In this document: one piece after another, positions 11,225 to 31,318 of the stretch
Layout of the letters: each line of letters opens with the position of its first letter
How positions within the stretch are numbered: the first letter of the stretch is position 1
Source: Rhodospirillaceae bacterium
GTDB taxonomy: Bacteria; Pseudomonadota; Alphaproteobacteria; MPNO01; UBA2964
Direction of reading: 5' to 3'
DNA length: 41,944 nt
NCBI GenBank assembly: GCA_002709075.1
Contig: PAPV01000013.1
Location: 127,749-169,692, forward strand
Notes under the pieces: model-generated
What the model was told of the DNA's origin: nothing
Database searches by the model: none
The model's input: only the letters and a program-made list of their open reading frames with translations
Position numbers and translations under genes: made by a program

Positions 11225-13487
11225 AGAAAGTGGTTTTAATCCCGATGCTGACCTCAAAGTTGTGGGCACCAATCCGGTAAAGCATGATGGATTAGATAAA
11301 GTACTAGGTCGAGCAAAATTTGGTGCAGATGTTTATCTCCCAGGCATGCTGTATGGAAAAATTGTCCGTTCACCGCATGCGCATGCTAAAATTAAATCAA
11401 TTGATATTTCAGAGGCTAAAAAACTGCCCGGTGTAAAGGCAGTAATAACGGGTGCCGACTTTCCGGAAATACCACAAGGTAGTGGTTGGGGGGATATGAG
11501 TCGGACCACGATTGCACGCGAAAAGGTTTTGTTCGACGGGCATCCTGTTGCGGCTATTGCGGCTATATCGGAGCAGGTGGCAAAACGCGCCTGCAAATTG
11601 ATAAAGGTGGAGTATGATGTTCTGCCGCATGTAATAGAAGTCGAAGATGCTATCGCCAAAGATGCACCGATTTTGCACGATTATATGAGAACAAAGGGAG
11701 ATGAAGATGCGCCTGATGTTCCAACCAACATTTGCGAAAAAATGGTAAGTAAGATTGGGGATATCGATAGTGGATTTGCTTCTGCTGATTTTATTGTGGA
11801 AAATGATTTTGACTCAAAACCTATGCATCAGGGTTATATTGAACCTCAGGGTTGCATTGCGGATTACTCTCAGGATGGGCTCGTGGAATTATGGACCTGC
11901 ACTCAGGCACCATTTGTATATCGAGACCGTCTTTCCGCGATTCTTAAAATTGATGCAGCGAAGATCAATGTTCAACAGTCTGAACTTGGGGGAGGATTTG
12001 GAGGGAAGACAGGTTTCTATGCTGAACCCCTCGCCATTGTATTATCAAAAAAGGCGAGTGCCCCTGTCAAAATGACGTTAACACGGACGGAGGTTTTTCG
12101 GGGTACTGGCCCAGTTTCCGGAACAAAGTCTCGTATCAAAATGGGTTGCAAAAGAAATGGGAAAATTGTTGCAGCAGAAGCGGAATTATATTTTCAAACA
12201 GGTCCATATACGGGATCGATGTATTTTAATGCTCCAAATGCAATGTTCACACGTTATGACCTTCCAAATATTTATATCGAAGCGTATGAGGTTGTTTCAA
12301 ATAGGCCTAAAGTTAATTCGTTCCGTGCTCCTTGTGTACCCCAAATCGTATTTGGCGTTGAGGGTCTTATCGATGATATGGCGAAAAAAGTCGGTATGGA
12401 TCCCATTGATTTCCGATTAAAGAATGCTGCTACAGAAGGGCATACTACTATCTATGGTGATACCTGGGGCCCGGTAGGTTTTGTGGAAACACTTGAGGCA
12501 GCTAAAACAACGGAACATTATAGGACCCCAATAAAATCAGGGGAAGGCCGGGGTATATCCTGTGGTTTTTGGTTCAATCGAGGAGGAGAGACAGCGTCGA
12601 CAATGACCCTCGCCCCAGACGGCACAGTCACTATATCTACCGGGACTGCAGACGTCGCAGGATCAAGAATTTCTATAGCTATGATGGCAGCGGAAGAGCT
12701 TGGAATTGATGTTGATAAAGTTCGTGTCAAAATGTCCGATACAAATTCGCTTGGGTTTAATCGTGTGACTGCTGGCAGTAGAACAACATTTTCGGTGGGG
12801 ATGGTAGTGGTTGACAACGCAAGAAAATGTATTGGAGAACTTTGTAGACGTGCTGCAAATGAATGGGGTGTAGCAGAAGAAGAAGTAAAATTTGAAAATG
12901 GTGAGGTGAAACCTGCTAGTTCAAACGTGGGTGATTTCGCTCCAATGTCAATAGGTGATATCACGTCCAAAACAACAATGACTGATGGGGCTATTGTATC
13001 TTCGTCTTCTATGAATGTAACTGGTGCTGGGCCCGGATTTGGTGTGCATATTGTTGACGTGAAAGTTGATGAGGGGACTGGCCGAGTTGATGTCTTGCGT
13101 TGGACAGTAATTCAAGATGCTGGCAAGGCAATTCACCCTTTACAAGTGGAAGGCCAACTCCAAGGTGCAGCAATTCAAGGAATGGGGTGGGCGCTTAATG
13201 AAGAATACATCTACACTCAAGAGGGACAACTCGATAATCCAGGTTTTCTTGATTACAGAATGCCGGTAGCATCAGATGTTCCTATGGTTGATTGTAAAAT
13301 CGTAGAGGTCCCTAACCCATTACACCCATTTGGATTGCGTGGAGTAGGTGAAGTGCCGGTTGTACCAACGATGGCAGCAGTGGGGAATGCGATTACCGCC
13401 GCGATTGGAATTAGGCCGACATCGCTGCCAATGTCACCTCCAAAGTTACTCGATTTAATTGAAAAGAGAGATACATTATACCCCTAA
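11208..13487 (+). CDS. Molybdenum hydroxylase Mo-binding (large) subunit, copy 1
   Basis: This catalytic subunit of the xanthine dehydrogenase/CoxL superfamily has 759 residues. The N-terminal a/b hammerhead domain includes VLGRAKFGADVYLPGMLYGK and IVRSPHAHAKIKSID. The Mo-cofactor loops include ELGGGFGGKTGFYAEP, the NSFRAPCVPQIVFGVEGLID segment, and the C-terminal LRGVGEVPVVPT with the catalytic Glu near residue 715. It introduces an oxygen from water into an aromatic or heterocyclic ring or an aldehyde. It lacks the AYxCSFR loop of form I CO dehydrogenase. AAGGA precedes the ATG. The substrate is unknown; the convergent hydrolase, decarboxylases and PyrKD-like pair suggest a heterocycle. Confidence 0.92.
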   Translation: MATILEESGFNPDADLKVVGTNPVKHDGLDKVLGRAKFGADVYLPGMLYGKIVRSPHAHAKIKSIDISEAKKLPGVKAVITGADFPEIPQGSGWGDMSRTTIAREKVLFDGHPVAAIAAISEQVAKRACKLIKVEYDVLPHVIEVEDAIAKDAPILHDYMRTKGDEDAPDVPTNICEKMVSKIGDIDSGFASADFIVENDFDSKPMHQGYIEPQGCIADYSQDGLVELWTCTQAPFVYRDRLSAILKIDAAKINVQQSELGGGFGGKTGFYAEPLAIVLSKKASAPVKMTLTRTEVFRGTGPVSGTKSRIKMGCKRNGKIVAAEAELYFQTGPYTGSMYFNAPNAMFTRYDLPNIYIEAYEVVSNRPKVNSFRAPCVPQIVFGVEGLIDDMAKKVGMDPIDFRLKNAATEGHTTIYGDTWGPVGFVETLEAAKTTEHYRTPIKSGEGRGISCGFWFNRGGETASTMTLAPDGTVTISTGTADVAGSRISIAMMAAEELGIDVDKVRVKMSDTNSLGFNRVTAGSRTTFSVGMVVVDNARKCIGELCRRAANEWGVAEEEVKFENGEVKPASSNVGDFAPMSIGDITSKTTMTDGAIVSSSSMNVTGAGPGFGVHIVDVKVDEGTGRVDVLRWTVIQDAGKAIHPLQVEGQLQGAAIQGMGWALNEEYIYTQEGQLDNPGFLDYRMPVASDVPMVDCKIVEVPNPLHPFGLRGVGEVPVVPTMAAVGNAITAAIGIRPTSLPMSPPKLLDLIEKRDTLYP

Positions 13488-14358: not shown

Positions 14359-15000
14359 CTATGAAATCAGACTTATTACTTTGTCAGTGTCCATTACTCG
14401 TCCCATGCGAGGAAAAACACGTTCGAGGAAAAATTCATTATTATTTCCCCGCATAGAATAACAACAGTCGCTGACTATTACTAAACCAAAATCAAGGTCA
14501 CGGGCAGCAAAAGCAGTTGACGCTATTCCAACATCTGTAGAGCCACCTGCAAGTATAATATTTTCAAGTCCTCGAACTCTGAGGGCAAACTCTAAATCAG
14601 TTTGAAAAAAACTATTCCAGCGATGTTTTGGCACTACCACATCGCTGTTAATTGGAGCCAATTCAGGCGCAATGTTCGCCGCATCAGTTCCCTTATAAAA
14701 ACCAGGTTTTATTGGTGTCTCTTTAGCCTCAATCGGCTTAAGTTCCATATCAGTATCGGTTAAGCGGGAAACAGTATCCGTGCCACCTTCCATATGCTGT
14801 CCGATAGGATAAAATGTGACTAAATTGGAGGATCTAGCTTTCTTCAGTAACCGTTGCATGTTGTGAAGAATTTGACGTTCGGCAAGAAATTTTTCTTTTT
14901 CTGGAATACCAGAATGCAGATAACCATTCAATGTATCAAAGAGAACAAGACCAGTATTGGTTGAATTTAACTTTTCTGAAAGTCGTGAAATAAAAGCCAT
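14359..15000 (-). CDS. Isochorismatase-fold hydrolase-like protein lacking the nucleophilic cysteine
   Basis: The 213-residue protein has the isochorismatase/amidohydrolase fold. Asp22 in LVLFDTLNGY and Lys125 in VVPKHRWNSF match two members of the Asp-Lys-Cys triad. The strand that normally reads GVxTxxCVxxTA reads GGSTDVGIASTAFAARD here, so Gly158 occupies the Cys position. Isochorismatase itself does not depend on a Cys nucleophile as the amidases do, so the protein may hydrolyse an ether or another bond, or have no activity. GGAAAAAAT precedes the ATG. It is upstream of and probably co-transcribed with the dienelactone-hydrolase gene. Confidence 0.75.
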   Translation of the reverse strand: MAFISRLSEKLNSTNTGLVLFDTLNGYLHSGIPEKEKFLAERQILHNMQRLLKKARSSNLVTFYPIGQHMEGGTDTVSRLTDTDMELKPIEAKETPIKPGFYKGTDAANIAPELAPINSDVVVPKHRWNSFFQTDLEFALRVRGLENIILAGGSTDVGIASTAFAARDLDFGLVIVSDCCYSMRGNNNEFFLERVFPRMGRVMDTDKVISLIS

Positions 15001-16380: not shown

Positions 16381-17805
16381 CTAAAGTGGCAAGATGTTGC
16401 CAAATTTTTCTCGGATGCGTTTCTCCAAAGCTTCACTGTTTCTAGCAACAATAGGGAAGGTTTCGCGCCTTTTGAAAGGCTTACATGCGTCAACAACCAC
16501 GCGGGAATTTCTGGGATCCTCATGACTATAACTCATCGGATCGAGGTGTGTACTCCAACAACCATTAAGTATATCAACTCCGTCCTTAGGATCGCAGCGT
16601 GTGCACATTGACCATAATACATCATTCATATTTGCAGGATCAATATCATCATCCACTACGATTACCCAACGGTTCGCGTACGCACCAGCATGGCATTGGG
16701 ATGCGACTAATCCTGCTTGTTTTGAATGTCCTCCGTACATTTGTTTGATGGAAATTGTAAGCCACATGCGGCTGCCTCCTGCCTCATGTGCCCATACACC
16801 TCTCACCTCAGGAATCCCTGCAGCCTCGAGTTGATTCCAAACTGCTCCACAACGATACGTTCCACGGTAAAATGTGTCGTCGTTTGGTGGAACTGCCGGG
16901 ATTGCTCCTAAAAGAATTGGATCGTTGCGATGCATAAATGTTTCTATGCGTATGGCCGGTTGTTTGGTTTCTCCTCCCGCATAATAGCCTGTCCATTCCC
17001 CAAGAGGACCCTCGGTTACTCTATCATTTGGGTGAATAAACCCTTCGAAAGCTATTTCTGCATTTGCTGGAACGGGTAAACCGGTTTTGGGCATATTAAT
17101 GATTTCAACACTTTCACCCAAAAGCCCTCCCGCCATATCATACTCGTTTTTGCCGTAAGGCACTTCTAGTCCTGCAACCATGAAAAGTGCGGGATGCATC
17201 CCTACCACTACTGCTATTGGACACGCTTCACCCTTTTCATGGTATTTGTTTCTTATAATGTCACCATGTTTCCCTTTTGACGTCATCAAAGACGCCACAT
17301 TTTTGTCATGACTTTGGACACGATAAGCACCATAATTTATCCACCCAGTATCGGGATCTTTCATCACCACCATGCAGGCTGTTCCTATGAAGTAGCCGCC
17401 GTCTAATTCATGCCATCTGGGCGTTGGAATTTTGGTAATGTCAACTTTATCACCCTCATAAACATTCTCTAAAAGAGGACCCTTGCCCACGATTTTTGGC
17501 GCAATTGCAAGTTGATTTTTCATATATTTTCGCCAATAATCTACTAATTCGACTTCTTTTTTGTTAACATCCTCACCCAATGCCAAGTTTATACGAGGGA
17601 CTGCGGTGAGAATGTTTGCTAAAACGCGGAAGCCTTTAGGAAAACCGGGAATTTCATCAAACATCACTGCTGGATTAGTCATTTGTCGCATATAGATGTC
17701 TACTAACGCGCCGATTTCTTCCTCGCGCTCAACCCCAGAGAAATGCTGCACTTGATTGTTTGCTTCAAGATCACTGATCCAATCGCGTAAGTCCTTATTA
17801 GGCAT
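16381..17805 (-). CDS. UbiD-family prenylated-FMN-dependent decarboxylase (copy 2)
   Basis: A second UbiD family enzyme of 474 residues, clearly diverged from copy 1. The prFMN and catalytic residues are intact: N157 and R162 in NYGAYR, H180 in KGKHG, and E265/E270 in TEGPLGEWTGYY. The C-terminal part repeats the family pattern AGIPEVRGVWAHEAGGSRMW and SQCHAGAYANRWVIVVDDDI. AAGGAGC precedes ATG 17805. It follows the second Mo subunit by 20 bp on the same strand, so hydroxylation and decarboxylation of the same compound are likely. Substrate probably an aromatic or heteroaromatic acid; the direction in vivo could also be carboxylation. UbiX must be supplied from elsewhere. Confidence 0.88.
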   Translation of the reverse strand: MPNKDLRDWISDLEANNQVQHFSGVEREEEIGALVDIYMRQMTNPAVMFDEIPGFPKGFRVLANILTAVPRINLALGEDVNKKEVELVDYWRKYMKNQLAIAPKIVGKGPLLENVYEGDKVDITKIPTPRWHELDGGYFIGTACMVVMKDPDTGWINYGAYRVQSHDKNVASLMTSKGKHGDIIRNKYHEKGEACPIAVVVGMHPALFMVAGLEVPYGKNEYDMAGGLLGESVEIINMPKTGLPVPANAEIAFEGFIHPNDRVTEGPLGEWTGYYAGGETKQPAIRIETFMHRNDPILLGAIPAVPPNDDTFYRGTYRCGAVWNQLEAAGIPEVRGVWAHEAGGSRMWLTISIKQMYGGHSKQAGLVASQCHAGAYANRWVIVVDDDIDPANMNDVLWSMCTRCDPKDGVDILNGCWSTHLDPMSYSHEDPRNSRVVVDACKPFKRRETFPIVARNSEALEKRIREKFGNILPL

Positions 17806-17825: not shown

Positions 17826-20144
17826 TTATATCCGTTTGTCGAGAATAGCTTTTAAACGTTGGGGTGAAACTGGAACTTGCTTTATCGCTCCGGGAATTCC
17901 GATTGCATCATCAATTGCGCTCGCAATTGCTGCCGCGGCGCCTGTGATACCTGCTTCTCCAGCCCCTTTTATTCCTATGGGGGTTCGTATCGATGGAAAA
18001 TCTTCAGTTAATAAAATTTCCGGATTGGGAATTTCCTTCATCGTCGGAATGAGATAATCAGCGAATGTCACAGACAAAGGTTCTCCATTAGGATCATAGG
18101 TAAACTCTTCATAAAGTGAACCACCTAATCCCTGAGCTAATGCTCCAACAAGCTGGCCTTCAACTAGCATAGGGTTAATAGATCTTCCTATATCGTATGC
18201 TATAAAATATTTTTCGACTTCAGTTTTTCCTGTTTCTTCATCCACCTTCACCACGCAAATATGATGTCCGTAAGGGTAAGTTTGATGGTCAATATTGAAC
18301 CACTCTTCCGCAGCTAGGTACGGCACTTTATCTCCTCTTTCTTTAGCAGTGGGCAGTAAAGCTTCAGCAATCTGGCCGAGTGTTAATGAACCGCCTTCAG
18401 GGTTGTTGATCGGATGCACTATCCCGTTGGTAATTGTTAAATCGTCTGAGCGCATTTGCAGTAACTCTGACGCCATATCTAAGGCTTTTTTACGTACAGA
18501 GAGAGCTGTTGCATTTACGGCGCTACCTGTCAAAACGCTGGCGCGAGAAGCGTGCGCTCCAACGCCATAATCTATCCTGTCAGTTCGTCCATGAACAACA
18601 TTGATGTTGCGGTAATTGGCTCCAAGTGCTTCGGCGCATATTTGTGCCATTGCTGTCTCGAAGCCTTGGCCGAGGGAGGCACCGCCAGTGATCACCTCTA
18701 TATGCCCTGTAGTATCAACAAAAATTTTTGCACCATCAGACGGGCCAAGCCCACTTTTTTCAAAAAACATTGAAAGCCCAACACCGACCAGTTCACCGCT
18801 CGCACGACGTTTCTCTAGGTCTGCTTTTAGATTTTCCCATCGAACGGCTTTTAAACCTTGATCTAACAGGCCCGCGTAATCACCGGGATCATGCTCTACG
18901 GAGTCACCAAGAACGTCGAGATCACGGCCGTAAGGCATTTCTTCAAGAGCAATTAAATTACGCCTACGCACTGCAACTGGGTCCATTCCCATCTCTTGGG
19001 CAATTTTATCCATTAAACGTTCCCGTACGAATGTACCTTCAAAGCGCCCGGGAGATCTGTAGGTAGCCGCTGGGGTTTTGTTTGTTAAACGAAAATGACA
19101 CACGGCCCTGTAATTGGGGATGCGATAAGGACCTGGCAGGGTGCCGGTGGTCATATTAGCTACTCTGGTACCGTGTGTGCGGATGTACCCACCTTGATCT
19201 AAATATAACTCGTCATCAATTGCTATCACTTCCCCATCTTCTGCGACAGCAGCCTTACAAATATGTCGCTGTTGACGAGAGTGATTTGCAGCCATCAGAT
19301 TCTCTTGTCGATCCTCAATCCACTTTACAGGCCGATCAAGCCTCATCGCTGCCACACAAACTAATACATCTTCTGGATACAATTCCCCTCTGATACCGAA
19401 GCCTCCTCCCGTATGTCCCTCAAATAAATGAACGCCGGATGAGGGGCGCCCGAGCATACGGCAAATTGTATCGCGATTTCGGTGTGGTACTTTTGCTGCA
19501 CCGTATAACTCAACTATATCTCGGGACGCGTCGTACCTTCCAACATTTCCTCGTGTTTCCAAAGGAACGCCCGAATGTCGACCGACTTTCACATCAACTT
19601 CAACAATTTTAAATGCTTCAGCGAAAGCTCTTTCAACATCACCGTAGCTTTGCTCTACTAATGCTGCCTCTGTTGTGTACCCATCTTTAAAATCTTGTGG
19701 AGGATCATCTGCGTTTATCAACACCTCCAAAGGTTCTAAGTCAAGTATCACATGCTCAGCAGCATCCTCCGCTATGTAGGGGTCTTCTGCAAAAACTGCA
19801 GCAACAGGGTCACCAACATAACGAACTAAATCCCGTGCAAGAGGATACTGACGAAACAACGCCAACGCTGGGTTGCTACCCTCTCGAAAGTCAATTGGGG
19901 GAATATCTTTTATATCATCAGCAGACCAAATGTCCACAACCCCCTCAACCTGGAGTGCAGCGGTTTTGTCCACCCCTATAATTCTACCGTGAGCAAGAGG
20001 GCTTCTGACTATCCTCATATGTAACTGGTTAGGAAAATTTATATCCCCAGCGAAGCGCCCCTTGCCTGTAATTAAGGGGGGGTCTTCTAGCCGTGGAACT
20101 GAATCACCTAAATGCCCGAGAAGTTCGTTTGTTTTAATATTCAT
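17826..20144 (-). CDS. Molybdenum hydroxylase Mo-binding (large) subunit, copy 2
   Basis: This 772-residue protein of the CoxL/XdhA superfamily starts with the hammerhead domain (VPRLEDPPLITGKGRFAGDI; MRIVRSPLAHGRI). It carries the Mo-pterin loops TGGGFGIRGELYPEDV and AATYRSPGRFEGTFVRERLM, and ends with IKGAGEAGITG, whose catalytic Glu is about residue 730. There are no adjacent FAD or Fe-S subunits, so it must borrow partners, perhaps those at 9858-11224. It is first in a leftward operon with UbiD copy 2 and is divergent from Mo subunit copy 3. TYRSPGR at the active-site loop differs from both other copies, suggesting a different substrate. Confidence 0.9.
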   Translation of the reverse strand: MNIKTNELLGHLGDSVPRLEDPPLITGKGRFAGDINFPNQLHMRIVRSPLAHGRIIGVDKTAALQVEGVVDIWSADDIKDIPPIDFREGSNPALALFRQYPLARDLVRYVGDPVAAVFAEDPYIAEDAAEHVILDLEPLEVLINADDPPQDFKDGYTTEAALVEQSYGDVERAFAEAFKIVEVDVKVGRHSGVPLETRGNVGRYDASRDIVELYGAAKVPHRNRDTICRMLGRPSSGVHLFEGHTGGGFGIRGELYPEDVLVCVAAMRLDRPVKWIEDRQENLMAANHSRQQRHICKAAVAEDGEVIAIDDELYLDQGGYIRTHGTRVANMTTGTLPGPYRIPNYRAVCHFRLTNKTPAATYRSPGRFEGTFVRERLMDKIAQEMGMDPVAVRRRNLIALEEMPYGRDLDVLGDSVEHDPGDYAGLLDQGLKAVRWENLKADLEKRRASGELVGVGLSMFFEKSGLGPSDGAKIFVDTTGHIEVITGGASLGQGFETAMAQICAEALGANYRNINVVHGRTDRIDYGVGAHASRASVLTGSAVNATALSVRKKALDMASELLQMRSDDLTITNGIVHPINNPEGGSLTLGQIAEALLPTAKERGDKVPYLAAEEWFNIDHQTYPYGHHICVVKVDEETGKTEVEKYFIAYDIGRSINPMLVEGQLVGALAQGLGGSLYEEFTYDPNGEPLSVTFADYLIPTMKEIPNPEILLTEDFPSIRTPIGIKGAGEAGITGAAAAIASAIDDAIGIPGAIKQVPVSPQRLKAILDKRI

Positions 20145-20295: not shown

Positions 20296-22638
20296 ATGCC
20301 TGATTCTAAGCTTTTTGGAAAGGACATTAAACGTCTAGAAGATCCGGTGCTGTTGAGAGGACAAGCAAACTTTGTTGACGACATTTTTTTGCCGGGAATG
20401 CTGCATGCATGTTTTGTTCGCAGCCCATTTGCTCATGCCAAAATAAATAGAATTGACGGCCTCGCAGCAAGTGAATGTGAAGGTGTGATTGCTGTACTTT
20501 CTTTGAAGGATTTTAGACCCCACCTGATCAGCGAATATTTAGTAGTTGGTTTGCCAAGTCCTAGTTATCGGCAAGAGAGTGATCGTCCCATATTGGCAGA
20601 GAAAGAAGTTGCTTACGTTGGGGAGCCAGTGGCAATAGTTGTGGCTAACACTCGTCATCTTGCAGAAGATGCGGCGGCCATGGTCGAGGTTGAATATGAT
20701 CCACTCCCTGCAGTAAATGATTGTCAAAAAGCACTTAAAGAAGGTTCTCCGACAGCTAGATTAGATGCTCCCCACAATCTAATGGCTGAATTTCTTATGG
20801 AATATGGTAACGTTGAAAAAGCCTTTCTGGACTCTCCTCATGTTTTTAGTGAATCATTAATGATTCATCGAGGAGGCAGTCACTCTATCGAGTGTAGAGG
20901 TTGTGTTGTTCAATATGAAGAGATTTCGGACGAACTAACACTCTGGACATCACATCAGATGCCACATTCATTGATGAGAACATTTGTTGAAATTACTGGA
21001 ATAGATGAAAACCGGATACGAGTTGTCACCCCCCATGTCGGCGGTGGATTTGGTCCGAAGTTAGTGGTCTATCAAGAAGACGTATCTCTGCTGTTAGCTA
21101 CAAAAATTTTAAATAGACCTATTAAATGGATAGAAGATCGTAGAGAACATTTTACTAGTACTACGCAGGAACGTGATCAGTATTGGGAAGTTGAAATAGC
21201 ACTAGACGATAATGGGTTAATACAGGGAGTCAGAGGGGAAGTTATTCATGATCATGGTGCCTACACTGCGCGTGGAGTAAATTTACCCTACAACGCCGCT
21301 GAGACTACTTCGTTGCCTTATGAGATCGAAAATTTTCACATGACAGTTAAGGTTGCGTTGACTAACAAGGTTCCCGTGACACCAGTTCGTGGTGCTGGGC
21401 ACCCACAAGGTGTTTTTGTTATGGAACGGCTTCTAGATCGTGCTGCATCGGAGTTGGGTATCGATCGTGCAGAAATTCGACGTAGAAATCTTATTCCGGG
21501 TGATAAAATGCCCTATGAAAAACCCTTGAAAACACGCGGTGGAATGCCAGTTTTATTGGACTCTGGAAATTATCCTAAATGTCAACATCTTGCGGAAGAA
21601 GCTGCTGATTGGGCAGGGTTTCCATCAAGACAGGAGGAAGCTCGAAAAGAAGGTAGATACCTTGGAATTGGTATATCAAATTTTGTAAAAGGTACAGGTC
21701 GTGGTCCGTTCGAGCAGGTAACCGTTAGAATTGGTCCTTCCGGTAAGGTTCATGTATACACCGGTGGTGTGGCTATCGGCCAAGGAACACATACAATGCT
21801 AGCACAGATTGTTGGTGAACAGTTGGGTGCTGATGTTAATAACGTTACGCTGGTCGGTGGGGATACCCACGCGAACGCACTCGGTATAGGTACTTCAAAT
21901 AGCAGGCTTGCGGTGGTTGCAGGCACTTCGGCGCATGTTGCAGCGCTGAAAGTTAGAGAAAAAACCCTTAAAATTGCTGCTCAATTGTTAGAAGCATCTG
22001 AAGAAGACTTAGACATTGAAGGTGATCAGGTTTGTATTCGTGGCACAGATATGAAGATATCTCTCGGTGATGTAGCAAATGCTGTTGCGGGAACGCCGGG
22101 CTATGCATTGCCCGAAGGCATGGAGCCTGGTTTAGAAGCTACCGAAAACGTGGTTCTGGATAATCTTGCCTTTGCTAATGGCACAAATATTATTGAGGTT
22201 GAGGTTGATCCGGAGACGGGTGGGGTAGAAATTCAGAAATTTATTCTTGCTCACGATAGCGGTGTCATAATCAATTCTATGATGGCTGATGGCCAAATAC
22301 ATGGCAGTGCCGCACATGGAATTGGTAATTCTTTGTTTGAATGGATGGGTTATGATCAGGATGCTAATCCTGTGACGACCAATTTCGCTGAGTATCTCTT
22401 GGTGACAGCAACAGAAATGCCCAATGTTGAAGTGATCCACAATGAGTCCCCTTCCCCACTAAATCCTCTTGGTGTTAAAGGGGTTGGCGAGTGTGGCGTT
22501 GTGCCGACCCCCGCGGCTGTGATTTCTGCTGTTGAGAACGCGTTACAGCCCTTCGGAGTGTGTATTGATAAGGCGCCAATTAGTCCTGCAGAAATTTGTG
22601 CTCTGATTCATGGCGGTAGGGTGCAGGGTGCAGCTTGA
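20296..22638 (+). CDS. Molybdenum hydroxylase Mo-binding (large) subunit, copy 3
   Basis: A third catalytic Mo subunit of 780 residues. The hammerhead domain appears in LFGKDIKRLEDPVLLRGQAN and MLHACFVRSPFAHAKI. The Mo-cofactor loops are HVGGGFGPKLVVYQEDVSLL and PVRGAGHPQGVFVMERLLDR, and the terminal VKGVGECGVVPTPAAV holds the catalytic Glu near residue 732. It is more like copy 2 than copy 1 in the MERLLDR/RERLMDK region. AGGAAAG precedes ATG 20296. It leads an operon with the XRE regulator (18-bp gap) and the TPR oxygenase (14-bp gap). No FAD or Fe-S subunit is adjacent. Confidence 0.91.
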   Translation: MPDSKLFGKDIKRLEDPVLLRGQANFVDDIFLPGMLHACFVRSPFAHAKINRIDGLAASECEGVIAVLSLKDFRPHLISEYLVVGLPSPSYRQESDRPILAEKEVAYVGEPVAIVVANTRHLAEDAAAMVEVEYDPLPAVNDCQKALKEGSPTARLDAPHNLMAEFLMEYGNVEKAFLDSPHVFSESLMIHRGGSHSIECRGCVVQYEEISDELTLWTSHQMPHSLMRTFVEITGIDENRIRVVTPHVGGGFGPKLVVYQEDVSLLLATKILNRPIKWIEDRREHFTSTTQERDQYWEVEIALDDNGLIQGVRGEVIHDHGAYTARGVNLPYNAAETTSLPYEIENFHMTVKVALTNKVPVTPVRGAGHPQGVFVMERLLDRAASELGIDRAEIRRRNLIPGDKMPYEKPLKTRGGMPVLLDSGNYPKCQHLAEEAADWAGFPSRQEEARKEGRYLGIGISNFVKGTGRGPFEQVTVRIGPSGKVHVYTGGVAIGQGTHTMLAQIVGEQLGADVNNVTLVGGDTHANALGIGTSNSRLAVVAGTSAHVAALKVREKTLKIAAQLLEASEEDLDIEGDQVCIRGTDMKISLGDVANAVAGTPGYALPEGMEPGLEATENVVLDNLAFANGTNIIEVEVDPETGGVEIQKFILAHDSGVIINSMMADGQIHGSAAHGIGNSLFEWMGYDQDANPVTTNFAEYLLVTATEMPNVEVIHNESPSPLNPLGVKGVGECGVVPTPAAVISAVENALQPFGVCIDKAPISPAEICALIHGGRVQGAA

Positions 22639-22656: not shown

Positions 22657-23523
22657 ATGACACTATTATTTGACGATATTGGTGATAGACTAAAGGCATT
22701 CCGTTTAGGATCTGGGCTTAGTGCGGAAGAAATTGCAAAACGCATTGGTGTATCACGCACAGCTCTTTATCGTCTTGAAAAGGGTGAATTAGTAAAAATT
22801 GATACGCTTGAACGCCTGTCGGAGCTGCTAGATGTTTCCGTACCGACTCTCTTGGGAGTTGGCGTGGAGTACATCGGATCTGCGGTGAGTTTCTTTGAAC
22901 GTTTACGCCAAATCGAAGAGGCAAGTGAGCATATTACGGTTTTGGCGGGATCAATATCCTATCTTCTAGCAAGTGAAGAGTTCCACGGGGTTTTGGCTGA
23001 AGTTTTGGCTGAAAGTTTACCAGAAGGTACAGATTCGCGGGTAAGCAACTTGTTAGAAGTTTTAAGGAGACGAAAAGACTCATACATGAGGCGGAGGCCT
23101 GGCATTCTAAATTTAATATCAGGAACAGAAATTGAACGGTTTTTAAGCAACGGTTTGGTTGGCAAAATTGGGTTAAGTCCAGATACTCAGTTTAAACGGC
23201 GCGCGGCAGCCCGCGCAGAGGCCTGTCACTTGGCAAATTTGATGGAGTCGGAACCAATCGGCGTACAGATTGGAATTATTCCCGGAACCTTGCCGCATAA
23301 TAGTTTTCAAATCTTTCGCCAAGCTCACCGCCGGTTGCTCGCCCTCAGTCCGTTTCGTCTTGGTGAACAGCCAAATATTAGTGCGGGAATCGCCATGATT
23401 ACTTCCGCGGAAGAGGCTCTCGCATTACATCAAAGAACTGTTGAAAATATGTGGCTTAGATCAAAGAAGGGATGTGCTGGAGCAACTTACCTGAGGTCTT
23501 TAATTGCAATTCATGCGGTATAG
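22657..23523 (+). CDS. XRE-family transcriptional regulator with an unassigned C-terminal domain
   Basis: Residues 8-60 form a Cro/C1-type helix-turn-helix: IGDRLKAFRLGSGLSAEEIA, then GVSRTALYRLEKGELVKIDT. The remaining 230 residues have no domain I can name; they contain a region GVQIGIIPGTLPHNSFQIFR followed by a segment rich in charged helices. The C-terminal part may sense a ligand such as the pathway substrate. It sits between a Mo subunit and the TPR oxygenase in one operon, so it probably controls this operon and perhaps the divergent one. A 12-bp tandem repeat lies at 22990-23013 in its coding sequence. Confidence 0.8.
   Translation: MTLLFDDIGDRLKAFRLGSGLSAEEIAKRIGVSRTALYRLEKGELVKIDTLERLSELLDVSVPTLLGVGVEYIGSAVSFFERLRQIEEASEHITVLAGSISYLLASEEFHGVLAEVLAESLPEGTDSRVSNLLEVLRRRKDSYMRRRPGILNLISGTEIERFLSNGLVGKIGLSPDTQFKRRAAARAEACHLANLMESEPIGVQIGIIPGTLPHNSFQIFRQAHRRLLALSPFRLGEQPNISAGIAMITSAEEALALHQRTVENMWLRSKKGCAGATYLRSLIAIHAV
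22990..23013. repeat. Tandem 12-bp duplication GTTTTGGCTGAA x2 inside the XRE gene
   Basis: Two perfect adjacent copies encode VLAEVLAE in the linker or sensor region. The unit is in frame, so copy-number change would add or remove VLAE without a frameshift. Confidence 0.7.
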
Positions 23524-23537: not shown

Positions 23538-24938
23538 ATGGCCGACTCCTACACAAAAGAATTTGAAGCTGTTGCTGCAAAGGCAATCGATGCCTACAAA
23601 TCAGGTGACTTGATTTATGCAGAATCCTGTTGGAGAGAGGCTTTAAAATTAAAACCGTATCATGTCGGAGCGCGTCACAATCTTGGTGTGTTGTTGGCAC
23701 GTAAGAATGAACACAACGCAGCTATCGAAACTTTTAATATGGTTATTAAGGCAAAGCCTGATCACGCGCGGGCTCACGCCAATCGGGCCGGCATCCTGCG
23801 AGCTACTGGTAATATGCGTGGGGCACTCGCAGGATATCAGACCGCAATAGAAATAGATCCAAATTTTTTTCAGGCTTATGTCGCGAAAGGTGATGCATTA
23901 TTTTTTTGGCAACGGTTTACAGAAGCCGTAGAAGCATATGATGCTGTTCTTTTGCGAAATGAAAATTATCTTGGGGCGCTTAGAGGCAGAGCCTTGGCTC
24001 TCTTGGCTCTTGGTGATGAAGCTGCCGCATTAAATGACTTTGAGAAGATTTTTTTAGTGAGAGCATCGTTGGAATTCCGACCGAGTAAAATTTCTCGCCT
24101 CAAACTGAGACATGACTTGGATCAATTATCGTACTCTGGAAAGGGTAAAAAATATGCTAAAATACTATCCAATTTAGAATCAGAGATCCACTGGCCCGAA
24201 GATGAAAACGAACCAGTTAGACTCTCTAAAACATGGTCAAAATCCCTTGAGGAATTTTTTAACCAACCTACAAATATTGTTTTGGCAGAAAAAGTAAGTG
24301 AACCTCTGACAGTTAAGGCTATCTCTATTCTTAATTCCTTGGATGAAATTAAGGATGGCCCACAAATTATTGACGGCTTGCTGCATGAAGACGCGTTAAA
24401 AATGCTTCGCTATTATTTATTAAAAAGTACTATTTGGAATGATTTCACACATATCGATGGATTTGTTGCAACCTATCTTGAAACTGGCCTGGCCTCTCCA
24501 TTGTTTTTACAGTTAGTGACTGCACTACGTCAAACGTCAGCATTTCGTAATTTGCCTTTAGTGCAGGGTTGGGCATTTAAAGGTGTGTCTTCTGAAGCTA
24601 GGATAGGAATGCATTCCGACGAAGCAAAATTGAGTTTAAATATCTGGCTAACTCCAGATAACGCTAATCTCGAGCCAGAACATGGGGGCTTGATTGTTCA
24701 TCGGCACTTGCCACCTGCAGATTGGTCTCTATCTAACTATTCTGATGATAAGGCACGCATTGAAAAGTGGATTCTTCAAAAGAACACTGACTCGCTTGAA
24801 ATTCCATACCGTGAAAATCGTGCAGTTATTTTTGACTCTAGGCTTTTTCATGGATCGGGCTCAATGAAGTTTGCGGATGGATATGAAAATCAAAGGATAA
24901 ATATTACATTACTTTTTGGTCACTCCAGAAAATTGTAA
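23538..24938 (+). CDS. TPR-repeat protein with C-terminal 2OG-Fe(II) oxygenase-like domain
   Basis: The first about 190 residues are tetratricopeptide repeats (for example AVAAKAIDAYKSGDLIYAES, ARHNLGVLLARKNEHNAAIE, ARAHANRAGILRATGNMRGA). The C-terminal 110 residues have the iron ligands of a 2-oxoglutarate dioxygenase: H359 and D361 in GMHSDEA, H438 in LFHGSGS and Arg453 in QRINITLLFG. The middle about 170 residues are linker and dioxygenase N-terminal part. Such TPR-oxygenase fusions often hydroxylate proteins, peptides or small molecules, but the substrate is unknown. AGGAAAG precedes the ATG. It is the third gene of the Mo-subunit copy 3/XRE operon. Confidence 0.8.
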   Translation: MADSYTKEFEAVAAKAIDAYKSGDLIYAESCWREALKLKPYHVGARHNLGVLLARKNEHNAAIETFNMVIKAKPDHARAHANRAGILRATGNMRGALAGYQTAIEIDPNFFQAYVAKGDALFFWQRFTEAVEAYDAVLLRNENYLGALRGRALALLALGDEAAALNDFEKIFLVRASLEFRPSKISRLKLRHDLDQLSYSGKGKKYAKILSNLESEIHWPEDENEPVRLSKTWSKSLEEFFNQPTNIVLAEKVSEPLTVKAISILNSLDEIKDGPQIIDGLLHEDALKMLRYYLLKSTIWNDFTHIDGFVATYLETGLASPLFLQLVTALRQTSAFRNLPLVQGWAFKGVSSEARIGMHSDEAKLSLNIWLTPDNANLEPEHGGLIVHRHLPPADWSLSNYSDDKARIEKWILQKNTDSLEIPYRENRAVIFDSRLFHGSGSMKFADGYENQRINITLLFGHSRKL

Positions 24939-25014: not shown

Positions 25015-25887
25015 ATGTCGGGGCATTTAGTTGAAAATAATTATACAACCGGTGCAATACGGGCTATGGAGTTGGATCCTTTTCCAAATAAACCTGCGGG
25101 TGAGTTTATTTGTAACGTCATATCGAATGATTGGGTCAATGAGGAATACAAACTGGTTGTTCTGGGTGCGCACAAAAAAGCATTAACAGCAGTAGCAGGG
25201 CAGTTTTTTCATTTATTGTGCCCAACCCCGGATGGGGCAGAGGTATGGATGAGGCGACCTATGAGCGTATACAGAGTTGATCAAAGTGGTGGAAGAATCG
25301 AATTTTTGTACAAGAGTGAAGGGCGTGGCACTAGAGGTATAGCCACTCTTAAGTCGGGAGATGAGTTCAATATTGCAGGTCCTTTGGGAGTTGGGTTTTG
25401 GCTTGAACCAGATTGGAAAAACATTGTTGTTCTGGGGCGTGGAGTAGGCTTGGCAACACTCGCACCTTTATCGCAAATGGCATTTGAGGCTGGGGTGAAT
25501 GTCACTGCACTTCTGAGTGCCCGTAATCGCGATGTAGTTATGTCACGTGATCTCTTTGAGAGTTATAATGCGGATGTAATTGAGTTAATTGATACCGATG
25601 GCTCATCAGACGTTTCAAATGTGAAAAATATTATTGAAGGTCTTATCAAAGATCAGAAAGCTGACGCATTTTTTACGTGCGGGTCAAATCGTTTATTGAA
25701 TTTGTTGAAGGATCAGGGACGAAAATATGGGATTCCAGGGCAGGTGGCTATGGAACAACTGATGGTTTGTGGTGTCGGTGCTTGTTACGTCTGCGTGCGG
25801 ACATTTAACGTGAATAACGAGCGGGTGTTGAGGCGAGTTTGCCGAGAGGGGCCGGTGTTCAAGATGGAGGAGACGGTTGGATGGTAG
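25015..25887 (+). CDS. PyrK-like FAD/2Fe-2S electron-transfer subunit
   Basis: The 290-residue protein resembles the electron-transfer subunit (PyrK) of class 1B dihydroorotate dehydrogenases. RPMSVY at residues 81-86 is the FAD-binding RxYS-type motif, GPLGVGFW at 122-129 and GRGVGLATLAP at 141-151 are the pyridine-nucleotide/FAD segments. The 2Fe-2S cluster uses Cys252, 257, 260 and 276 in MVCGVGACYVC and RRVCREGPVF. PyrK takes electrons from the FMN subunit and gives them to NAD+. It overlaps the following PyrD-like gene by 7 bases, as partner subunits do. It is slightly longer than usual because of an N-terminal extension of about 20 residues. Confidence 0.85.
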   Translation: MSGHLVENNYTTGAIRAMELDPFPNKPAGEFICNVISNDWVNEEYKLVVLGAHKKALTAVAGQFFHLLCPTPDGAEVWMRRPMSVYRVDQSGGRIEFLYKSEGRGTRGIATLKSGDEFNIAGPLGVGFWLEPDWKNIVVLGRGVGLATLAPLSQMAFEAGVNVTALLSARNRDVVMSRDLFESYNADVIELIDTDGSSDVSNVKNIIEGLIKDQKADAFFTCGSNRLLNLLKDQGRKYGIPGQVAMEQLMVCGVGACYVCVRTFNVNNERVLRRVCREGPVFKMEETVGW

Positions 25888-26828
25888 ATCTATCAGTTGA
25901 AATTGGTGAGTTAACGCTTCAAAATCCGATAACACCAGCTTCGGGCTCTTTCTCTTGGGAATATGACGAATTTATTGATCTTAATGAGTTGGGTGGTCTC
26001 GTGGCAAAGACAATTTGTCGTGAGCCTCGCGATGGAAACCCAACGCCGCGTATGGCTGAAACTGAAGCAGGGATTATTCAATCCATTGGGCTTCCTGGGA
26101 AAGGTATAGATTATTTTTTGGAAAATATAGTTCCCGAATATGCAAAATTTGACCCGCCTCTTATTGTTTCCTGTTCTTCGGAAGATCCAGATGAGTTTGC
26201 TTTATTAGCTAGTGAATTAAGTGTACCAGACGTAGATGTTGTGGAATGTAACATATCTTGCCCTACCCGAAATACTTCAGGAGGAAATTTTGCTTTAAGT
26301 GATGAACATACTGGAGAGGTTGTGAGCAAGCTTCGAGCCGCTACAGATAAGCCTCTTTGGGCTAAATTGTCCCCGAATGCCGGGGATATAGTATCTATCG
26401 CCAGGGCGGCGGAGGAGGCAGGTGCAGACGCTTTATGTATAGCTAATACATTTTTAGGTCTTAAAATCAGGACTGACAACTTTCGTCCAGCCATAGGAAA
26501 TAAGTACGGTGGTATGGTTTCTCCTGCTTTAAAGCCGATTGTACTTAGAATGGTCTACCAGTGCGCGAAAGAGGTGAAAATACCAATAATAGGTATTGGC
26601 GGGGTAACCAAAGCAGAAGATGTAGTGGAATACATGCTTGCAGGCGCAAGTGCCGTGGGAATTGGTTATGCTGCATTCCGAAACCCCACCGCCCTTACCT
26701 CTATTATTAGGGATTTAGAGGTTTGGTGTGATAATCGCGGAATAAAACGCGTTTCAGAGCTAATTGGCGCGATCAAGGATGAAGATATGGAGATGGATAC
26801 TCTAACTGCAGCAAGCCAAGGTGTTTAG
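25881..26828 (+). CDS. Dihydroorotate dehydrogenase-like FMN protein, likely not orotate-specific
   Basis: A class 1B-type (beta/alpha)8 FMN protein of 315 residues starting at ATG 25881. K43 in AKTICREPRDGNP and K162 in AKLSPN match the FMN or substrate Lys positions, and C127 in NISCPT is the usual catalytic Cys. Orotate contacts of lactococcal PyrDA, as I recall them, are altered: the Asn of the NxxGL loop is Gln67 (IQSIGLPG), the CPN Asn is Thr129 and the NS pair is Asn189-Thr190. IGIGGVTKAED and AGASAVGIGYAAF are the phosphate-binding ends of FMN. With the PyrK-like partner it forms a two-electron ring reductase or oxidase. A catabolic role is more likely than pyrimidine synthesis, though this is inference. 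Confidence 0.82.
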   Translation: MVDLSVEIGELTLQNPITPASGSFSWEYDEFIDLNELGGLVAKTICREPRDGNPTPRMAETEAGIIQSIGLPGKGIDYFLENIVPEYAKFDPPLIVSCSSEDPDEFALLASELSVPDVDVVECNISCPTRNTSGGNFALSDEHTGEVVSKLRAATDKPLWAKLSPNAGDIVSIARAAEEAGADALCIANTFLGLKIRTDNFRPAIGNKYGGMVSPALKPIVLRMVYQCAKEVKIPIIGIGGVTKAEDVVEYMLAGASAVGIGYAAFRNPTALTSIIRDLEVWCDNRGIKRVSELIGAIKDEDMEMDTLTAASQGV

Positions 26829-26942: not shown

Positions 26943-27863
26943 TTAGCTTTCTTGCACAGTGAATCTATCGCCTGGAATGGTGCCCTTCGGAAGTGAGGAA
27001 ATGTGCGTGTATATGTCGCGCGGCCGAGCGAACCATACTTTTTCAACTTGAGGATGTTTACAAATATGTGTGAGAATATCTCTTAAACCCGCCAATCTAT
27101 AGGGTTGACCCACAACGAAGGTATGCAGAGCCAAACTGAAGACCAAAGGTTGTTGATCACTTAAAGACATCTGTTCGTCAAAATGTGAGCACACCATTTC
27201 CGTAAATTGACTAGCTGTATGTCGTCGAGAGAGTTGGGCCGGCGAATCATTAATTTCAATATGATAAGGAAGCATTAGCAATGGGCCGGCCCTCGTTTGC
27301 ATCCAAGTTGGCTGATCATCACATGACCAATCCATGATATATTTGTAACCCTCTTCTTTCAATAGGTCTGGTGTGTGGGCACTTTCGGATATCCAAGGGC
27401 CCATCCATCCACCAGGTCCATCGCCTTCATTTTCTCTAAAAACCGCGGTTGCAGCACGAATAAGCGCCTTTTCTTGTTTCTCAGGATAATCACCCTGTTG
27501 TTCTGAATTTGTTATACCGTGACCAATAAACTCATCGTTTCTTTCGCGGATCCGCGATGGGATTTGTGGTGCATATTCGTAGATTGACGTATTCATGAGG
27601 TGACTAGCAGGTAAATCAAATTCATCTAAAAGATCAAAGATTCGCCAAATTCCGACCCGCAAGCCATAGTCACGCCAGGCATAGTTTCGAACATCAGGTT
27701 GGACACCCGGATTTGTTGGTGTGTGGCCAAGACCTTCCCCAAAACTAAAATGCTCAATGTTAAGGCCAATATAAAATGCTAACCGCTTGCCCTCTGGCCA
27801 ATCATAATTGGTTCTCTCGATTATGGGGCTGTATTCATAACGACCATGTTTCTTTAATTTCAA
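26943..27863 (-). CDS. Polysaccharide deacetylase / PuuE-like allantoinase family protein
   Basis: This 306-residue protein has the NodB-homology fold in the PuuE subgroup: FYIGLNIEHFSFGE near residue 30, NTSIYEYAPQIPSRIRERND at about 92-111, IGHGITNSEQQGD at about 113-125 and the closing ALHTFVVGQPYRLAGLRD. The TFDD metal motif of true chitin deacetylases is absent, as in PuuE. PuuE opens allantoin; a cyclic ureide or amide is a plausible substrate here, but not shown. The start is a TTG at 27863, supported by AAGGTGA 4 bases upstream; no ATG lies near it in frame. It is convergent with the PyrD-like gene. Confidence 0.8.
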   Translation of the reverse strand: MKLKKHGRYEYSPIIERTNYDWPEGKRLAFYIGLNIEHFSFGEGLGHTPTNPGVQPDVRNYAWRDYGLRVGIWRIFDLLDEFDLPASHLMNTSIYEYAPQIPSRIRERNDEFIGHGITNSEQQGDYPEKQEKALIRAATAVFRENEGDGPGGWMGPWISESAHTPDLLKEEGYKYIMDWSCDDQPTWMQTRAGPLLMLPYHIEINDSPAQLSRRHTASQFTEMVCSHFDEQMSLSDQQPLVFSLALHTFVVGQPYRLAGLRDILTHICKHPQVEKVWFARPRDIYTHISSLPKGTIPGDRFTVQES

Positions 27864-28229: not shown

Positions 28230-29714
28230 ATGTCTGAAAACGACTATGATGTAGTAATAGTAGGAGCTGGAAATGCAGCGGCCTGTGCTGCGATGGCCGC
28301 ACAAGATTCTGGAGCAAAAAAAATTACTATGCTGGAGTGTGCTCCAGAGGATGAGGCTGGAGGAAATACTCGCTTTACCGCGGGAGCTATGAGAGTAGTG
28401 TACGATGGTGTAGAGGACATTAAAAAACTCGTGGACTTGTCTAACAAAGAGCTAGCAGACACCGATTTTGGAACTTACACGCAGGATCAATTTTATGATG
28501 ATATTTTCCGAGTTACTGAATATCGTACTGATCAAGAAATGGCTGAGTCCTTAGTCACAAAAAGTTTAGATACTCTTATTTGGATGAAAGAAAAAGGTAT
28601 TAAGTTTGTGCCAATATATGGTCGGCAAGCGTTTAAAATTGACGGTAAGTTTAAATTCTGGGGTGGATTAACGGTGGAGACATGGGGTGGTGGCCCTGGT
28701 TTATATGATTCCCAGCAGGAAATAACAAAAAATTTGGGCATAGAAACAAAATTTGAGACAAGAGCAGTTGAGCTTGTAATGGAAGGAAGCCGAGTTGCAG
28801 GAGTGAAAATAAAGAAAAACGGACAAATAAGAATCATTAAAGCAAAATCGGTTATTATTGCGTCAGGTGGATTTCAAGCAAATCCGGAGTGGCGTACGCG
28901 CTACCTTGGTCCTGGTTGGGATTTGGCAAAAATTCGTGGAACACGTTTTAATACAGGTGACGGCATCCGTATGGGAATTGAGGCTGGTGCTGCGACATAT
29001 GGTAACTGGTCGGGTTGCCATGCTGTTGGATGGGATCGCAATGCACCCGAGTTTGGTGACTTGGGAGTTGGTGATCAATTTCAGAAGCACTCATATCCTT
29101 TTTTTATAATGGTAAATGCTACTGGCAAACGTTTTGTAGACGAGGGTGCCGATTTTAGAAACTACACTTATGCAAAATACGGTCGAGTCATACTTCAGCA
29201 ACCAAACCAATTTGCATGGCAAGTCCTAGATGCAAAAGTTGCTCATTTAAAACGCGATGAGTATTCTATTCGACAAGTAACTAAAGTTACTGCAGATACA
29301 ATTGAGGAGTTGGCTGGAAAGTTAGAAGGCGTTGATAAGGATACATTTTTAGCTGAAGTAAATGAATATAATAGTGCTGTTAAACAAGATATTCCGTATA
29401 ATCCAAATGTGAAAGATGGGCGTTGTACCGAGGGGCTCGCCATTAATAAATCAAATTGGGCGATGACCATAGACACACCTCCCTTTGAAGCATATCAAAT
29501 TACATGTGGAATTACATTTACATTTGGCGGATTGAGAATTAATCAAAATGGTGAGGTGGTTGACGGCGACTTGAAGTCAATTCCTGGGTTATACGCGGCT
29601 GGAGAGTGTGTAGGGGGATTATTCTATTTTAATTACCCAGGGGGATCCGGTCTTACGGCAGGTTCAGTATTTGGTAAAATAGCTGGGCATTCGGCAGGGG
29701 CATATTCCATTTAA
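28230..29714 (+). CDS. FAD-dependent dehydrogenase, TcuA (tricarballylate dehydrogenase)/fumarate reductase family
   Basis: The 494-residue protein has an N-terminal FAD Rossmann motif VVIVGAGNAAACAAMAA with Glu at MLECAPEDEAGGNTRFTAG. The middle of the protein is the fumarate-reductase-type capping domain, and the C-terminal GLYAAGECVGGLFYFNYPGG and GSGLTAGSVFGKIAG segments close the FAD site. This pattern fits TcuA, which oxidises tricarballylate to cis-aconitate, or a related flavin enzyme that acts on C-C double bonds of carboxylates. No TcuB is adjacent. AAAGGATAACG precedes the ATG. It converges on the amidase gene with 14 bp between stops. Confidence 0.82.
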   Translation: MSENDYDVVIVGAGNAAACAAMAAQDSGAKKITMLECAPEDEAGGNTRFTAGAMRVVYDGVEDIKKLVDLSNKELADTDFGTYTQDQFYDDIFRVTEYRTDQEMAESLVTKSLDTLIWMKEKGIKFVPIYGRQAFKIDGKFKFWGGLTVETWGGGPGLYDSQQEITKNLGIETKFETRAVELVMEGSRVAGVKIKKNGQIRIIKAKSVIIASGGFQANPEWRTRYLGPGWDLAKIRGTRFNTGDGIRMGIEAGAATYGNWSGCHAVGWDRNAPEFGDLGVGDQFQKHSYPFFIMVNATGKRFVDEGADFRNYTYAKYGRVILQQPNQFAWQVLDAKVAHLKRDEYSIRQVTKVTADTIEELAGKLEGVDKDTFLAEVNEYNSAVKQDIPYNPNVKDGRCTEGLAINKSNWAMTIDTPPFEAYQITCGITFTFGGLRINQNGEVVDGDLKSIPGLYAAGECVGGLFYFNYPGGSGLTAGSVFGKIAGHSAGAYSI

Positions 29715-29728: not shown

Positions 29729-31009
29729 TCAAACAGAGACAATTTTTGTAACCCATTTAGCCCACGAAATGAGGGAGGTGTCCCCGTATCGCGGCCCAAC
29801 AATTTGGATTCCTACTGGTAATCCGTTGGGCCCACTGTGAGTAGGTAATGTAATGGTGGGTGTATGTAAAATCGTCCAATACCCCTGAAATCGGGCATCT
29901 CCTGTGCTTGCCAGTCCCTTTGGGGCTTCCCCGTGAGCAGATGGTGTGAGTATAAAGTCGAGTGGTTTAAGAATTGCGTCAACAGATGCACGTGCACTCT
30001 CGGCATGCTCGAGTGCAGCGCGGTATTGATCCCAAGAAATGGAATTACCATTTTGCACTTGTTTTAAAATATTATCTGACATTTGATTTTGATGATGGGC
30101 AGCATGCCATGAAAGAGCTTTACTTCGTTCAAAATCATTTATTGTGTTTCTTACATTAGTAAGACTTGTGAATGTTGCTGGCATTTTTGTTTCAACAATC
30201 TTTGCACCAAATCGCGATAACTCTTTAACTGCATTTTCAACTGCTGTGCGGGACTCTGGAGAGGCTTCATTCCACAAATGTGTTTTTGCAACTCCGATTA
30301 GAGGTTGTGAATTTTCATCTGGGGTTTGACTCAATGATCGGTTAAGAAGGACGGAAGCGATTAAATCGATATCTTCAATTGTCCTCGCCATTAGACCTAT
30401 TGTGTCGAGATTTTCAGCCGCAAATAACAGTCCAGCGCGGTTTATAATGTTATAAGTTGGTTTGTATCCAAAAATACCGCAAAATGATGCTGGTCGGATG
30501 ACAGATCCTCCAGTCTGAGTGCCAAACGCTGCATGAACCATCGTGTCTGCGACAGCAGCTGCAGAACCGCTAGAAGATCCACCCGGTGTATGTGCAAGAT
30601 TAAACGGATTAGTTGTTAAACTAGGGAAGGATCCCGCAAATTCGCACGTTGCTGTCTTTCCCATTATCACCGCCCCCGCATTTCGCAAAATATTTACGCA
30701 AGCTGCGTCAGTTGTTGGTTGCCATCCTTTGTAAATCGATGAACCCATTTGAGTTGGCATATCGAATGTGTCGAGAACATCCTTTATTCCGACTGATAAA
30801 CCAGACAATCTGCCAGATTTCTTATTTTTATCGATTATGCGAGCATTTTTTAATGCGAGGTCGCCATCAAGATAAGCCCATGCTTTCACGGTTTTTTCCC
30901 GAACATCAACTTGCTTCAAACAGTCCTGCATTACTTCTTCAGCAGTGAGCAATCCCTCAGTTTTCATTTGGATAATTTCTGTACCACTAATTTTGTTTAA
31001 ACTATTCAT
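29729..31009 (-). CDS. Amidase signature family hydrolase
   Basis: The Ser-cisSer-Lys triad of the amidase signature family is recognised: Lys in LSVGIKDVLDTFDMPTQMGS, the Ser-rich loop TPGGSSSGSAAAVA, and the nucleophile Ser in TGGSVIRPASFCG. It hydrolyses amide bonds of an unknown small molecule, releasing ammonia or an amine. The ATG at 31009 is chosen because AGGAT lies a few bases upstream at 31016-31020; upstream in-frame Met codons (31084, 31027) lack a site and lengthen the N-terminus unusually. It fits ring-opened lactam or amide breakdown in this cluster. Confidence 0.85.
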   Translation of the reverse strand: MNSLNKISGTEIIQMKTEGLLTAEEVMQDCLKQVDVREKTVKAWAYLDGDLALKNARIIDKNKKSGRLSGLSVGIKDVLDTFDMPTQMGSSIYKGWQPTTDAACVNILRNAGAVIMGKTATCEFAGSFPSLTTNPFNLAHTPGGSSSGSAAAVADTMVHAAFGTQTGGSVIRPASFCGIFGYKPTYNIINRAGLLFAAENLDTIGLMARTIEDIDLIASVLLNRSLSQTPDENSQPLIGVAKTHLWNEASPESRTAVENAVKELSRFGAKIVETKMPATFTSLTNVRNTINDFERSKALSWHAAHHQNQMSDNILKQVQNGNSISWDQYRAALEHAESARASVDAILKPLDFILTPSAHGEAPKGLASTGDARFQGYWTILHTPTITLPTHSGPNGLPVGIQIVGPRYGDTSLISWAKWVTKIVSV

Positions 31010-31318
31010 ATCAGTATCCTGAAACATATTTTTATCATTAAAGGGTAAGCAGTATGCCAGTTTTTTATCGATAATAAGGTGCACTTTGTTTTGTTTTTTT
31101 TCTACACAAGATCCTTTTTTAAAATGAATGATAAAAATTTACATGGTTTTAAATATTTTGAAGGGAGCTATGACTTTCTAAAAAGACCGGTATTTAAGTT
31201 ACTTTTTTATCAGAACGTTAGTACTCAGCGGTAAATGGCTGAGATTGTTAGTGCGCTCAACAAGAATATTTACAATGATAGAAAATTTCAATAGACCAAA
31301 CTATTTTGCCAGTTATGA
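31010..31318. other. AT-rich gap between the amidase and MetE-like genes
   Basis: Besides the amidase's ribosome-binding site (31016-31020) I see no gene, hairpin with T tract, or repeat. Confidence 0.45.

Follow-up and report, generated by a model that had tools for sequence, protein, structure and literature searches.

A PyrK/PyrD-like gene pair in the window, the 41,944-nucleotide stretch of DNA analyzed here from a marine alphaproteobacterium (Rhodospirillaceae), encodes a dihydroorotate dehydrogenase (DHOD)-like enzyme whose substrate is probably not orotate, judging from its residues and gene context. The pair probably now serves, repurposed, in the breakdown of a nitrogen-containing ring, most likely one that closely resembles orotate. 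Apart from the other DHODs of the genome, three features support the change: two pocket substitutions, Gln67 and Thr129, are fixed across an entire clade; the PyrC proteins linked to such pairs form a clade with pocket changes of their own; and the ureido-hydrolase found beside an intact pair is replaced by an amidase and a TcuA-type dehydrogenase. Sequence and neighborhood give fairly good support to a changed substrate and less to the identity of the exact ring.

Active-site residues of the PyrK/PyrD-like pair

The pair is encoded on the forward strand by a PyrK-like FAD/2Fe-2S electron-transfer subunit of 290 aa (25015–25887) and a PyrD-like FMN subunit of 315 aa (25881–26828; ATG at 25881, stop at 26828), which overlap by seven bases (25881–25887), as the initial annotation of the sequence had stated. 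The PyrD-like protein aligns with Lactococcus lactis PyrDB (1ep1) across nearly its full length and passes both class 1B models, TIGR01037 (289 bits against a cut-off of 270) and NF005574 (320.6 against 269 bits). The window pair shares with the L. lactis class 1B enzyme (1ep1–1ep3) the arrangement of two adjacent genes, the PyrD fold family, Lys43, the catalytic Cys127, an Asn-Thr pair and the four 2Fe-2S cysteines of PyrK. It differs in Gln67 for Asn67, in Thr129 for the CPN-motif asparagine (Asn132), giving CPT, in Val-Ser-Pro for Ser-Gly-Pro in the loop facing C5 of orotate, in Gly-Tyr for Gly-Thr, and in its neighbors, which encode Mo-hydroxylase, PuuE-like, TcuA-like and amidase proteins. 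The PyrK-like subunit, which contains the DHODB Fe-S domain (PF10418), also sets it apart by scoring well under the curated PyrK equivalog cut-offs (best 138 against 314 bits). The cysteines in question, Cys252, Cys257, Cys260 and Cys276, are kept in all 60 CPT-linked PyrKs, and it is from this complete set that coupling to NAD through the FAD and 2Fe-2S centers is predicted.

The residue claims of the initial annotation were borne out in part. Cys127, Lys43, Gln67 and Thr129 were found where it had placed them, and the replacement of the two orotate-contacting asparagines, Asn67 and that of CPN, is invariant in all 46 Gln67/Thr129 PyrDs of our tree. The Asn-Thr pair, described there as an altered Asn-Ser, is present but is no alteration: L. 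lactis PyrDB and nearly every class 1B relative in our residue table carry Asn-Thr, which rules it out as a specificity change. The wider proposal of a ring other than orotate survives the loss of this argument, with the refinement that the compound probably resembles orotate very closely and is not an arbitrary ring.

T. cruzi DHODH contacts orotate through the side chain of Asn67 at N1-H and C2=O, through Asn194 at N3-H and C4=O and through Lys43 at the carboxylate, and Lys214 is situated where C5 substituents reach (PMC4427443); Asn132 is also named as an active-site contact (PMC12060061). Placed on these positions in our own alignment, the window PyrD retains the residues that read the carboxylate and N3/C4, and has changes in the N1/C2 reader, at the Asn132 position and in the loop on the C5 side. 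Among the readers Asn67, Asn194 and Lys43, the change is seen solely at Asn67.

Dihydropyrimidine dehydrogenase PreA/PydA is likewise a DHOD-fold reductase that feeds a cyclic amidohydrolase and a ureido/amide hydrolase. The window pair differs from it in the absence of the CPH-type motif and in a PyrK partner in place of PreT, and the motif together with the NF006183 score (123.7 against 335 bits) ruled out PreA. Barba et al. (2013, PMC4016543) describe a DHOD-like clade, X1, that occurs together with genes of the xanthine-dehydrogenase type and for cyclic amidohydrolases. The uncharacterized X1 and X2 branch with PreA/PydA (PMC4016543), whereas the window protein scores as a class 1B PyrD in the model searches.

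Other DHODs of the genome, distribution and the linked PyrC

The assembly of the window genome (2.52 Mb, 99.9% complete) contains two further full DHODs. One is a class-2 PyrD whose residues are ordinary; the other, a PyrK/PyrD pair on contig C6 (L002/L005), has Asn67 and CPN intact. The initial annotation had tied its case to a separate biosynthetic pyrD elsewhere in the genome, and this outcome favors it. The C6 operon runs XRE-PyrK-PyrD-M20 carbamoylase-PyrC-PyrE and supplies the sole copies of PyrC and PyrE found in the window genome; the order from PyrK to PyrE recurs in three of the four relatives examined, the fourth being without PyrC. The C6 pair resembles the window pair in its PyrD (49% identical), its adjacent XRE homologue and its diverged PyrK, and differs from it in the intact asparagines and in the carbamoylase, PyrC and PyrE of its operon. 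Since the genome holds both a class-2 PyrD and this intact pair with the only pyrC and pyrE, a biosynthetic role for the window pair is unlikely; the second pair is available for orotate, and the window pair would not be needed for pyrimidine synthesis. Just upstream of the C6 operon (L005:10712–11871) lies a gene for a TPP subunit similar to sulfopyruvate decarboxylase beta, with a small ORF that has no Pfam match in front of it; the arrangement resembles the two-subunit TPP heterocycle decarboxylase LumK/LumL (PMC12746152).

Orthologues of the window PyrD, 71–100% identical, occur in 22 of 27 genomes of the order and in 11 of the 11 good ones. They are rare outside the order: two of 398 genomes of the phylum give a match at E ≤ 1e-60, one of them being the window genome. 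Searching 84,980 species genomes yielded 79 loci, many of them MAG contigs with loose organism labels. In a maximum-likelihood tree the 46 Gln67/CPT proteins, 67–100% identical to the window protein, form a single clade (support 100/100) nested inside a CPT clade (100/99), with the CPN proteins falling outside the latter. The pocket residues form a series that runs from ordinary class 1B (Asn67, CPN, SGP, GT) through the XRE-linked CPN paralogues to proteins with Asn67, CPT, SGP and GY or GF, and then to those with Gln67, CPT, VSP or ISP, and GY. The simplest reading of these sequences is that Asn132 was replaced by Thr first and Asn67 by Gln afterwards. A third pocket variant was seen in Rhodobacterales PyrD-like proteins (L099 and L100, near 10001–10900), which carry Phe67, CPN and Asn-Ala and have Mo-hydroxylase genes nearby.

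The PyrC proteins linked to CPT pairs form a clade of their own. Numbered on what we take to be the E. coli PyrC sequence, they have Met or Ala for L222 (15/15) and Pro for A266 (GxPG; 13/15), keep R20 and N44, and have PY in place of PH. The readable unlinked and CPN-linked PyrCs, with L142, L146 and L148 left out of the unlinked comparison, have RPH or KPH and, except for one masked by N, CGCAG; Met at 222 also occurs in one unlinked PyrC. In M. jannaschii DHOase the equivalents of R20, N44 and H254 hold the carboxylate, and the residues that our alignment pairs with A266 and L222 contact N1 and the carbamoyl group, respectively (PMC12809426). In both cases it is the main chain that makes the contact, and the side-chain changes therefore need not abolish it. 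Genomes G427 and G437 contain an ordinary PyrC as well as the linked form; no other dihydroorotase was found in G426 and G438, where the linked PyrC may serve synthesis or the MAGs may be incomplete. These changed pocket residues weaken the use of a PyrC neighbor as proof of plain orotate.

Probable catabolic neighborhood and a proposed route

The operon of the window pair reads, on the forward strand, a Mo-hydroxylase large subunit (20296–22638), an XRE-type regulator with an HTH and about 220 aa (22657–23523), a TPR protein with a 2OG/Fe(II)-oxygenase-like C-terminal domain (23538–24938), PyrK and PyrD. A PuuE-like cyclic amidohydrolase of the polysaccharide-deacetylase fold faces it from the reverse strand (26943–27863), followed by a TcuA-like FAD dehydrogenase on the forward strand (28230–29714) and an amidase-signature hydrolase on the reverse strand (29729–31084). 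The best PDB matches of the first large subunit are 6-hydroxypseudooxynicotine dehydrogenase, CoxL and quinoline 2-oxidoreductase. Two more large subunits bring the number in the window to three: one is divergent from the first (17826–20144, reverse strand), and the other belongs to a forward-strand set of FAD, 2Fe-2S and large subunits (9843–13487), of which 11208–13487 was assigned to the large-subunit group by sequence clustering only. It is possible that this set supplies small subunits to the lone large subunits. The window also contains two UbiD-type decarboxylase genes (6193–7674 and 16381–17805), one of them adjoining the second large subunit, and UbiD homologues are recurrent near CPT pairs. 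An isochorismatase-family hydrolase (14359–15000), to whose family nicotinamidase and maleamate amidohydrolase belong, lies within the same catabolic region.

The PuuE-like protein has PuuE allantoinase (3cl6) as its closest solved match (E = 8.8e-21) and fails as a PuuE allantoinase in TIGR03212 (103.9 bits against a cut-off of 424.6). The nearest solved structure to the amidase is malonamidase E2, and it also matches biuret and allophanate hydrolases. The TcuA-like protein, whose nearest solved matches are fumarate and urocanate reductases, passes NF006130 (562.9 bits against a cut-off of 369) and falls short of TIGR02485 (252.9 against 372.55), and no TcuB was found in the window genome. 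With a different TcuA-like protein and no TcuB, the window genome departs from the Salmonella TcuAB tricarballylate dehydrogenase; true TcuA and TcuB are present in the nearest relative, a genome of the same genus (L092, G001). There an amidase, TcuA, TcuB and a PuuE-like gene form one run on the strand facing PyrKD; TcuA overlaps TcuB and passes both cut-offs (710 and 587 bits), and TcuB scores 453 bits in TIGR02484, above cut-off. This run, with a true TcuA and TcuB beside PyrKD, is stronger evidence for a tricarballylate link than the common TcuA-like genes, a group that passes one of the two curated TcuA models where tested. TcuA converts tricarballylate to cis-aconitate, according to work cited in one report (PMC10468695).

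Neighboring genes were counted locus by locus in a tblastn table. TcuA-type genes lie near PyrKD at nine Gln67 and five Asn67/CPT loci, PuuE-like genes at 12 Gln67 loci, and PyrC at seven Gln67 and nine Asn67/CPT loci. No locus in this table has both a PuuE-like and a PyrC-like gene, a mutual exclusion that is only suggestive, the counts being small and following phylogeny. No M20 carbamoylase was found near PyrKD in the CPT loci by tblastn; an amidase and a TcuA-type gene appear there.

On these genes, residues, conservation patterns and linkages we base a tentative reading, one that we hold a little short of even, in which the pair uses NAD(P)H to reduce an orotate isostere without N1-H, most likely citrazinate, on a route via tricarballylate to cis-aconitate; each reaction, with its direction, substrate and cofactor, is predicted. 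The substrate would keep the carboxylate of orotate, held by Lys43, along with the NH-C=O edge that Asn189 and Thr190 recognize, and would lack the N1-H read by Asn67; the nearest isostere would be citrazinate (2,6-dihydroxyisonicotinate), with carbon in place of N1-H. Mo-hydroxylases would turn isonicotinate into citrazinate; the two hydroxylations would call for such enzymes, and three large subunits are encoded in the window. Electrons would pass from NAD(P)H to the FAD and 2Fe-2S center of PyrK, to FMN in PyrD and on to the ring C=C, converting citrazinate to 2,6-dioxopiperidine-4-carboxylate, an isostere of dihydroorotate. The ring would then be opened by the PuuE-like protein acting as a cyclic imidase, or elsewhere by the diverged PyrC-like one. 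Opening of an imide gives an amide and not a ureide, which would explain an amidase in place of the M20 carbamoylase. The amidase is predicted to convert the opened product to tricarballylate, and the TcuA-type dehydrogenase to oxidize this to cis-aconitate, which would enter the TCA cycle.

Kretzer and Andreesen reportedly described in 1991 a Mycobacterium isonicotinate pathway that runs through citrazinate and tricarballylate in CoA-bound form. Our literature searches for an isonicotinate/citrazinate pathway found no paper, and those for homarine or a DHOD-like ring-reduction system found no match; a riboflavin pathway paper contained no DHOD-like step. Several observations count against citrazinate: the window TcuA-like protein falls short of TIGR02485 and its genome has no TcuB, true TcuAB genes are near PyrKD at one locus only, some of the genomes encode many NF006130-positive proteins, some Defluviicoccus loci have no Mo-hydroxylase, amidase or TcuA nearby, and the Asn67/CPT relatives adjoin pyrC and pyrE.

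Alternative readings and significance

The last of these observations bears on the main rival, which we consider rather unlikely, that interconversion of dihydroorotate and orotate is kept, probably by an NADH-dependent orotate reductase for catabolism or salvage, with Gln67 and Thr129 tolerated. In some MAGs the pyrC and pyrE next to the Asn67/CPT pair are the sole dimeric-type copies found, which fits an orotate link; the window PyrD scores as class 1B in both models, and Gln is able to donate and accept like Asn. Set against this are the class-2 PyrD and the intact CPN pair in the same genome, a class-2 PyrD in the very cluster of the CPT pair at L087, L093 and L102, the missing carbamoylase in the tblastn survey of CPT loci and the changed pocket of the linked PyrC. 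It is less likely again that the pair reduces some other pyrimidine or N-heterocycle (a uracil or thymine derivative, barbiturate, or a 2- or 5-substituted orotate) in a series of reduction, ring opening and amide hydrolysis that does not end in tricarballylate. The same order of enzyme types would serve such a series, the amidase matches to biuret and allophanate hydrolases suit it, and VSP for SGP alters the loop facing C5; but Lys43 and, in the linked PyrC, R20 and N44 all remain to bind a carboxylate, the nearest relative links the system to TcuA and TcuB, and the PreA model scores far under its cut-off.

The most constant partner of the pair is the TPR/2OG gene, which adjoins PyrKD in 40 of 44 Gln67 loci as against 0 of 17 Asn67/CPT loci (tblastn). 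Three of the four exceptions are short contigs (L040, L052, L071), and L078 looks like a real absence. Close homologues (49% or more) were found in all 16 Gln67 genomes searched; among the Asn67/CPT genomes searched only G434 has any homologue, at 41–42% and apart from PyrKD, and more distant ones exist elsewhere without PyrKD. The C-terminal half of the protein has no Pfam or PDB match and contains an HxD...H facial triad with a distal Arg (HxD...H...R) that is invariant in 38 of 38 sequences, a motif from which an oxygenase fold may be predicted. It is conceivable, though improbable, that the pair acts with this protein, for example in a modification or repair reaction, and that the catabolic genes are chance neighbors. 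The presence of a PyrD orthologue in every good genome of the order agrees with such a role, as do three Defluviicoccus loci (L060–L062) where TPR/2OG, PyrK and PyrD follow recA and alaS and no catabolic genes accompany them. What speaks against it is the association of amidase, TcuA-type, Mo-hydroxylase and cyclic amidohydrolase genes with CPT pairs, which is repeated in varied orders and lineages.

The natural stepwise series from Asn67/CPN through Asn67/CPT to Gln67/CPT presents a biosynthetic core enzyme whose pocket has changed together with that of its partner hydrolase, and with the gene neighborhood it gives a concrete substrate prediction that can be tested cheaply. It also bears on annotation, as automatic naming would label the window PyrD, which passes the NCBI models for that enzyme, a dihydroorotate dehydrogenase despite the normal PyrD in the genome. 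More speculatively, and with somewhat less confidence than in the citrazinate reductase itself, a DHOD/dihydroorotase module may have been duplicated to become a citrazinate (1-deaza-orotate) reductase and imidase, giving marine and soil Proteobacteria an aerobic pyridine-carboxylate route that passes through 2,6-dioxopiperidine-4-carboxylate and tricarballylate and ends at cis-aconitate. If the citrazinate reading is true, these would be genes for a non-CoA breakdown of isonicotinate, tied to tricarballylate use.
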